From an uncultured Rubrobacteraceae bacterium (GTDB taxonomy: Bacteria; Actinomycetota; Rubrobacteria; Rubrobacterales; Rubrobacteraceae): a DNA stretch of 47,210 nucleotides. Made by a program: the position numbers and the translations under genes. How positions within the stretch are numbered: the first letter of the stretch is position 1; each line of letters opens with the position of its first letter. A model generated the notes under the pieces. It worked only from the letters and a program-made list of their open reading frames with translations, was not told where the DNA came from and searched no databases. Below, in pieces: positions 180-4,495 of the stretch. The stretch lies in NCBI GenBank assembly GCA_902806075.1, contig CADCVG010000018.1:1-47210 (forward strand), in the 5' to 3' direction.

Positions 180-406
180 GCCGCCGACTGGAGGCGCTCG
201 AAGGGGGCGATGAGAGCTGCGTGGTGTGCGGATGGGGGCCGGGTATGAAGCTAGAGATAGTTTGGGACCATGACGACCAGGAGCCCGAGGAGCCGGAATA
301 CTGCCCGGCGTGCGGCCGTCCCGACACACTCACGGTCACATGGCCGGATGTGGACGATCGCCCCGGTCCGCTAGGGTATGGACGCCCAGGACTAGGCCCC
401 CGCTAG
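167..406 (+). CDS. Small zinc-ribbon-like protein (CxxC...CxxC)
   Basis: GTG start overlapping the upstream stop; motifs CVVCGW and YCPACGRP. Confidence 0.5.
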   Translation: MGSIGRRLEALEGGDESCVVCGWGPGMKLEIVWDHDDQEPEEPEYCPACGRPDTLTVTWPDVDDRPGPLGYGRPGLGPR

Positions 407-462
407 CCTTCCACATAATACTGCGCGGACGTCTCCCCCGGCCCGGTACCCCTATCCCTGTT

Positions 463-610
463 GGACCGGGTGCGAGCGGCTTCCCTTGCCAACTGGCGCA
501 TATGATGGATATGCTAAATGGATTACGGAGCCGGATACCTCTGCTAATTGTCTTTCCCATCCGGCCCCGCTTGAGGCCGGCCATGTTCTCTCTAACACCC
601 GGCCTCTTTT
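463..610 (+). ncRNA. Intergenic module copy 1: conserved GACCGGGTGCGAGCGGCTTCCCTTGC block ending in a terminator-like hairpin (candidate ncRNA or leader)
   Basis: Block at 463-488; GAGGCCGG (573-580)/CCGGCCTC (599-606) followed by TTTT. Same arrangement recurs at about 704-814. Confidence 0.35.
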
Positions 611-703
611 CTTGCTCTCAAGAGCCGTGAGGATTGCCGGAGACGGGCGCTGAGACGGTCGGTAGTTAGAGAGAGGCACCACTCCGGTATCCCCTCACCT
701 CCT

Positions 704-814
704 CGACCGGGTGCGAGCGGCTTCTCTTGCAGGTTTCGTAACATAACGCGCGGGTAAGCTGACAGTGTGCCCGCTGCACAGGGCCGGAGATCCCTCATCA
801 TCTCCGGCCCGTTT
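704..814 (+). ncRNA. Intergenic module copy 2: GACCGGGTGCGAGCGGCTTCTCTTGC block ending in a terminator hairpin
   Basis: 25/26 match to copy 1; perfect 11-bp hairpin GGGCCGGAGAT (781-791)/ATCTCCGGCCC (800-810) followed by GTTTTC. Confidence 0.4.
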
Positions 815-861
815 TCGTGCTCTCAGAGATGCATCTCAGGGTTCTGGTAGCCCTCGTCTAT

Positions 862-1095
862 CTAGCTGGTCGGCCTGGTGGCCCCTCTGATCAGTTTTCT
901 AACGGAGCGCACCTCCTCACTCTCGCGGTCGGCCAAGATGAGATTCTTCCCGCACGCGCATGTGAAGTCTGTACGCTCCGAAACCCAGTCCTCCTCTAGC
1001 CCGAGGAGGATCGTGTTCTCCTCGCACTTCTTGCACACGAGGACGATACGCCCCGAGCAAGCCACCGTGTGCTCTTCCTCCAGATCACGCCGCAT
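862..1095 (-). CDS. Small zinc-ribbon protein
   Basis: MRRDLEEEHTVACSGRIVLVCKKCEENTILLG...FTCACGKNLILADRESEEVRSVRKLIRGATRPTS; CxxC pair plus CxC; AGGGGG-type RBS before the internal ATG. Confidence 0.5.
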   Translation of the reverse strand: MRRDLEEEHTVACSGRIVLVCKKCEENTILLGLEEDWVSERTDFTCACGKNLILADRESEEVRSVRKLIRGATRPTS

Positions 1096-1378
1096 GTTGC
1101 TCCCCCTGTCTCTCCCTGACGGTAGTGAAGGTTTCCGCGAGAGTAGAATGGTCTTTGGGTGGGCCATCGCTCCTCCGGGGGCCCTCCATTTACCCGGAGG
1201 CAGCATTCCGGGCCCACCCCGGAGCTAATTTACACGTGGTCTCTACAGTCACAAGGTCTACCGTGGTCATTTTGTGGTCAACCTACCTAAACCTGAACCT
1301 GCGCGTAATGGTTCTTATTGAGGTCCGTGTCGCGGCTTTCGGAGCAGAGAGCCCCTGGTTAAGGGTAAGATAAACACC

Positions 1379-2019
1379 GTGGAAAAAGATCCTAAACAGC
1401 CGCATCCCGGAAACCACGCGGATGGCCGCTACAGAACACCCGCGGGTGTTCCAAGCAGTTCGGGATGGGTGACTACTAAAGTTGCCGCGGAAGCCCTTGG
1501 AGTAAACTCGCGTACTGTCCGCGGTTACATAGAGCGTGGAGAACTCGTTGCTAAATCCGAGGGAGAGGGCATACAAAAGGCCTATTTAGTCTCTATAGAT
1601 TCGCTCTACACTCTCAGACACAGTCGCGGCATTTCCCGGAAAACCCGTAAGAACACCCGCGAAGATTCCGCGAGGACTACTACGGGGGAATGCACGCGGC
1701 AGATCTCAGCGGAATGATCCGCGACCTAACCGCGGAGCTGATGAAGAAGTCCGCGGATGCTGCAGAGTTTCGCACCCGCCTGGAGCTAACTGCCCAGGCC
1801 GAAAGCACATTGCGCGAGGCCCTAGAGCGTGAACGCCAAAGAGCGGACTGGCTGAAGACAGAGTTACAGGAGGCTAGGAAATCGCTGCTAGCCCCACGAG
1901 ACGCCTCGGAGGCGACCACCGCGGAGACGGAGAGTAGAGAGACCCCGGACCAGCGCGAAGGCTCTCAGGAGGGCGGAGAGCGCCGGTCCTGGTGGCGTCG
2001 ATTCTTCGGCTTCGAGTAG
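1379..2019 (+). pseudogene. HTH (MerR/excisionase-like) DNA-binding protein with coiled-coil C-terminus, split by a frameshift
   Basis: 1379-1717 encodes GWVTTKVAAEALGVNSRTVRGYIERGELVAKSEGEG...; 1690-2019, in another frame, encodes the coiled coil LRTRLELTAQAESTLREALERERQR..RRSWWRRFFGFE. Confidence 0.55.
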
Positions 2020-2676: not shown

Positions 2677-2712
2677 GAAGAGGGCCGGGGGCTACTAAAC
2701 CCGGCCCTCTTC
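2677..2712 (+). terminator. Rho-independent-like terminator hairpin
   Basis: Perfect 13-bp stem GAAGAGGGCCGGG (2677-2689)/CCCGGCCCTCTTC (2700-2712). Confidence 0.7.
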
Positions 2713-2813
2713 ATGCCCTCGAGAACCCTAGAGGTGGCCTCAGAGTAGCCCAACTAGTACCTCACCACCGCCGCCGGAGGCGGAGGCGCCATCCTCGCAC
2801 CGCTTCAGTTGAT

Positions 2814-2843: not shown

Positions 2844-3077
2844 CTGAAACTTCTTTGACACCCGTGGGTGTCATATCTAATATAACAACAGGCTAAGCGT
2901 AATACTCGCCGGACTTCCCCTTTCCCCCAACCCTATAGGTCTATGTGACCGGGGTGGAGCTACCTCTATTCACCCAGCTGCCTAGAAGACCTCTTTCTCG
3001 GAAACCGGGGAGAGATAGCCCCGGTCGCATGAGGTCTATAGGACTGGGTCCCTCGCAAGGTGTCCCGACGTTGCGCG

Positions 3078-4173: not shown

Positions 4174-4347
4174 AAGCTTCTCCTTTAGCTCACCTGCTCG
4201 TCATACAGTACGCTTCTCGGGGCGAGGGCATGAGCGACTCCCGCACCCGTCTGTTTGTAACACTAAGAACGTACCTGGTATTTGGGGAGAAGGCAATAGT
4301 AGGAGGGGGCGAGAATACCTCTATTCACTGAACTGCCGGTAAGAGAC

Positions 4348-4495
4348 CAGGCTGTAGAAAAACTCCCCGTTACTGCTTCCGGTCCTCGATTCGGGTTCAA
4401 AACGCCTGTTTGAGGCCTCTAAAGCCCGATCTGGAGCCTTTAGAGCCGGTTTATGCGGCCATGAATGTGCCTGGATCGAGTTTTTCAACAGCCTG
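4348..4495. mobile_element. 148-bp MITE-like element with IS1182-like terminal inverted repeats
   Basis: CAGGCTGTAGAAAAACTC (4348-4365) and GAGTTTTTCAACAGCCTG (4478-4495) are inverted repeats with one mismatch; internal hairpin CTCTAAAG/CTTTAGAG; no ORF. Confidence 0.65.

Follow-up and report, generated by a model that had tools for sequence, protein, structure and literature searches.

Gene setting and architecture of the module

The window, meaning the whole 47,210-nucleotide stretch of DNA analysed here, is one entire contig (G000:C18) of a draft genome of 116 contigs that is 75% complete, and the style of its proteins suggests a Rubrobacter-like actinobacterium. Between two genes, the upstream one at 167-406, lies an intergenic module of two related units arranged head to tail, with a terminator closing each unit and a promoter-like element between them (Table 1). 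The first gene 3′ of the pair is encoded on the opposite strand, and the nearest plus-strand gene lies about 570 nt downstream of unit 2. Elsewhere in the window, a predicted secreted protein (2296-2658) carries a single in-frame TAG in mid-gene, with the frame open on either side.

Table 1. Positions of the module's parts and of its neighbouring genes in the window
Feature	Position	Strand	Description
Candidate promoter, unit 1	384-419	+	GCCCAGGAC, also present in the post-terminator element, followed by CATAAT (414-419); spacer 20; weak, read from sequence
5′ repeat block, unit 1	443-489	+	CCGGT...ACCGG hairpin (C-rich loop) followed by a GCGAG-CGGCTTCC-CTTGC hairpin
Hairpin 1, unit 1	526-569	+	GCCGGAT/ATCCGGC, CU-rich loop; equivalents in L011 and L012
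Hairpin 2 (intrinsic terminator), unit 1	573-610	+	Hairpin 573-606 plus TTTTC; 18-nt loop; CM R1 93.4 bits
Post-terminator, promoter-like element	629-668	+	GAGGATTGCC; GAGACG (640-645), 17-nt spacer, TAGTTA (663-668)
5′ repeat block, unit 2	684-730	+	C-rich loop containing TCACCTCCT
Internal hairpin, unit 2	748-777	+	GCGCGGGTA...TGCCCGCTGC
Intrinsic terminator, unit 2	781-815	+	Hairpin 781-810 plus GTTTTC; 11-bp stem, CU-rich loop; CM R1 44 bits
Zinc-ribbon-like gene	862-1206	-	Convergent with the module; neighbour kept in G008 (68% amino acid identity)
HTH_17/MerR-like gene	1379-2019	+	Coiled coil, WWRRFFGF end, broken frame; family also near module copies in other species

An earlier note on this DNA had described tandem duplicated blocks, each ending in a GC-rich hairpin with TTTTC, and both parts of that description are borne out. 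The two 5′ blocks form a gapless 47-nt repeat, 81% identical at a spacing of 241 nt, with a core in which 25 of 26 positions agree. The 20-mer GACCGGGTGCGAGCGGCTTC occurs exactly in each block (464-483 and 705-724); with up to three mismatches allowed, 0.08 matches to it would be expected, and no shuffle contained two. The stretch from the 5′ block to the terminator hairpin differs between the units, while each has its own GC-rich hairpin and T-tract. Folding, which the earlier note had proposed as a check, places both units below dinucleotide shuffles in energy (z about -2.4 each). Hairpin 1 and the post-terminator element, the latter recurring in other genomes, are additional to what had been described.

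The same note held that similarity extends past the hairpins into a shared tail. The tails are indeed alike (TTGCTCTCAAGAG and GTGCTCTCAGAG), but their TTTTC-N-TGCYC portion also follows ordinary terminators in the family and is therefore not specific to the pair. For example, TTTTC-N-TGCCC stands behind many family terminators (L048, L049, L077, L080, L127 and window 2700-2720), and the terminator-tail pattern yields 16 matches in the genus compared with 2 for a reversed control. As a universal terminator signal it was rejected, since it is present on about one in ten strong terminators across 400 kb of G002. That GGCCGG terminators and the TTTTC-N-TGC tail are found elsewhere in the family could suggest that the two units are merely GC-rich terminators resembling each other by chance. 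We regard this as highly improbable: the 47-nt block and the post-terminator element lie outside the hairpins and are shared far above chance, and the copies in other species described below contradict it.

The post-terminator element as a putative promoter

Similarity among copies runs beyond the terminator into GAGGAT-N2-CC..GGACGGGCGCGGAGCCGGTC at W1, L010, L044, L011a and L012b. In eight of nine element sites, those with diverged spacers included, a GGACG-type hexamer is followed by TA at 17-18 nt, and this constant distance despite spacer drift argues for reading the element as a promoter, from which unit 2 would start near position 675. A sigma-70 scan called no promoter at 629-668. The element also occurs without the hairpins, directly 5′ of an HTH gene (G003:C95) and of a GTG-start gene (G000:C91), as well as elsewhere, and it lies directly 5′ of genes at G003:C63 and C89. 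Ahead of the GTG-start gene, which may resemble DUF5808, it spans G000:C91:15294-15322 (L084), where a TATAGT box occurs at a spacing of 17. Part of the element forms a GCCC-N5-GGGC dyad, a possible operator. A GACCGGG at G004:C310 falls within a gene and was discarded.

As to a promoter for each unit, unit 2 has this conserved element and unit 1 has weak candidates only. The 5′ block of unit 1 could instead be read as untranscribed DNA ahead of a promoter at 486-515 (TTGCCA-18-TATGCT).

Distribution of copies and linkage to an HTH gene

When 61 genomes were searched at the DNA level, relatives of the module came to light in the same genus only, in two other species (G003 and G008). Pairs occur at G008:C245 (L011) and at G003:C28 (L012), the members of the latter lying 0.6 kb apart, and single copies at G003:C89 and G003:C63. 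The position of the G008 pair matches that of the window pair, both having the convergent zinc-ribbon gene and the HTH gene as neighbours. That a tandem pair has survived while its neighbour diverged to 68% amino acid identity is the best evidence for what would be selection on the arrangement itself.

The earlier note had suggested searching the genome and its relatives for the repeat, and had named a lack of other copies and of conserved structure as grounds for abandoning the idea. No such lack is seen where the hairpins and the post-terminator element are concerned, as both other species contain them. The 26-mer, on the other hand, has no copy in its own genome besides the window pair, and its sole counterpart outside is a diverged one at G003:C28 (L012 1370-1398). 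The exact 20-mer, searched in 84,980 genomes, gave a single match in Pseudomonas that was taken as chance. A covariance model built from eight seed copies and searched in 40 genomes of the family returned those eight as its only strong matches, the next match having E = 1e-4; marginal matches in other genera were not accepted, those inspected proving to be gene terminators of an ordinary kind or parts of coding sequences. Within its own genome the window pair gave the sole strong matches to the model, and no Rfam family scored above its gathering cut-off for the module.

Comparison of the copies by eye reveals substitutions that keep pairing: A-T to G-C in hairpin 2 from unit 1 to unit 2, G-C to A-T in hairpin 1 of L012b, and GCGAG/CTTGC to GCACA/TGTGC in the 5′ block. 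Such apparent covariation touches few positions in three species and is thin, because there are only eight copies, two of them duplicates.

The single copies at G003:C63 and C89 lack the 5′ half, where a dispersed repeat stands instead, and retain only the terminator and the post-terminator element. This reduction is what would be predicted if the module were a duplicated transcription boundary, in which hairpin 2 stops an upstream RNA, transcription resumes from the element at 629-668 and punctuation rather than RNA is selected. At both sites the retained pair of features lies 5′ of a small gene, and in copies that combine hairpin 2 with the post-terminator element, conservation is highest in these two. 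Such a boundary would leave unexplained the conserved 47-nt block far 5′ of each terminator, the long CU-rich loop and its extra hairpin, and the presence of two terminators 200 nt apart in an interval with no gene; we consider it unlikely, though it is the main competitor.

In G003:C63 (L151 4474-8932) the dispersed repeat, which is about 45 nt long (GGGTTTCCGAGAAGACCTCTTAGCGGCAATTGGGTGAATA), returns at intervals of 0.2-1.6 kb, and two diverged copies lie on the minus strand of the window (2956-3010 and 4311-4370). It is perhaps REP-like or a cassette boundary. Flanking repeats at module copies are found for the G003 copies only.

At five sites (the window, G008:C245 and G003:C95, C89 and C63), the module or the post-terminator element has an HTH gene or a remnant of one no more than about 1.2 kb away, despite only 0-5 matches to the HTH family per genome in the genus. 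No HTH gene lies near the G003:C28 pair, and the element is absent from most HTH genes. In the window the HTH_17 gene is split over two frames, compared with an intact homologue in G003:C95, through a frameshift or an assembly error. It is conceivable, if improbable, that the CU-loop RNA pair and the MerR-like HTH protein form a regulatory locus, with the HTH protein controlling the shared post-terminator promoter element and one regulator thus setting protein genes as well as sibling sRNAs across the genus.

The linkage to an HTH gene, together with its broken frame in the window, also bears on the suggestion of the earlier note that the repeat belongs to a mobile element. If the module were regulatory DNA left behind by a mobile or duplicating element carrying the HTH gene, its repeats would be passengers. 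This idea is supported in part by an 846-bp segment, 93% identical between G003:C63 (L151 5674-6515) and G003:C89 (L152 11246-12082), that contains two of the G003 copies; its cargo is a terminator, the promoter-like element, a small gene and an HTH remnant. Against it, the module region has no match in phage collections, plasmid collections or viral contigs, and neither terminal inverted repeats nor target duplications are seen at the window copy; the combination of terminal inverted repeats with dispersed copies in one genome that marks a mobile element or MITE was not found. The HTH protein likewise has no match among plasmid records, and a 16-mer search of viral contigs gave matches scattered over 24 contigs. 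We judge a mobile origin to be improbable.

Proposed sibling small RNAs and known counterparts

Taken as a whole, the module is real and lineage-restricted, and it most likely consists of tandem sibling sRNA genes. Two homologous units stand in tandem, and from a tandem order of putative promoter, hairpins and terminator, independent short RNAs would be the simplest product. We infer, at a probability of roughly 0.45, that the locus holds two tandem sibling sRNA genes that are transcribed and act by pairing with ribosome-binding sites. Unit 1 would extend from about 443, or somewhat further upstream, to about 612; unit 2, driven by the element at 629-668, would end near 815. Each would give a structured RNA of about 140-180 nt that ends in its intrinsic terminator and exposes CU-rich, G-poor loops, and these loops may pair with the ribosome-binding sites of mRNAs and repress translation in the manner of NmsR or LhrC.

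Of the three options raised by the earlier note, paralogous sRNAs fit best. A leader or attenuator of a downstream gene would find some support in the alternative stems 5′ of the terminators, but the next gene faces the opposite way in both the window and G008, and the gap before any plus-strand gene makes this function unlikely; no ligand domain was matched in Rfam either, and we consider a leader very unlikely.

The pairing proposed for the sibling sRNAs was compared between predicted start regions and coding windows: the loops favoured the former, but composition-matched shuffled loops showed a preference just as strong (1 of 13 loops at 0.03). Neither UCCC motifs in the loops, which show no excess over composition, nor the G content of unpaired bases, which is no lower than in shuffles, pointed to pairing. 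Loop-to-ribosome-binding-site pairing thus stands as an analogy rather than a finding. The motif TTTCCCA is found in three copies and was given no weight because it was picked after looking. The anti-Shine-Dalgarno match TCACCTCCT of unit 2 was dismissed as decisive evidence, the window holding it three times; the 16S 3′ end for comparison with it was not found in this assembly.

Our literature search found no dedicated study of sRNAs in Rubrobacter. If transcribed, the pair would represent a new family of sRNAs that have a promoter-like element in common and a regulator gene linked to them.

Three characterized systems come closest to the module. NmsRA and NmsRB of Neisseria meningitidis are tandem sRNAs, about 70% identical, that lie in one intergenic region under their own promoters, and they form several stem-loops in which UC-rich unpaired stretches pair with Shine-Dalgarno regions (PMC5362039). 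The window module resembles them in its two related tandem units and CU-rich loops, a likeness that implies no claim of sequence relationship; it differs in consisting of predicted units in a different, GC-rich host lineage. The multicopy LhrC1-5 RNAs of Listeria carry CU-rich motifs in their loops and terminator loop, with nearly identical copies and fixed UCCC motifs (PMC4132741). The module similarly exists in several copies with CU-rich loops, that of the terminator included, whereas its copies have diverged and its UCCC content is at the level of composition.

In the CcsR sRNAs the loops are C-rich. These members of the cuckoo RNA family of alphaproteobacteria are tandem sRNAs located beside a conserved small protein gene, a DUF1127 gene with which they are co-transcribed, and are processed with RNase E (PMC10253847). 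Although each window unit ends in a terminator of its own and the surroundings showed no DUF1127 gene, the module is like CcsR in its tandem units, its C-rich loops and the conserved small protein gene that adjoins it.
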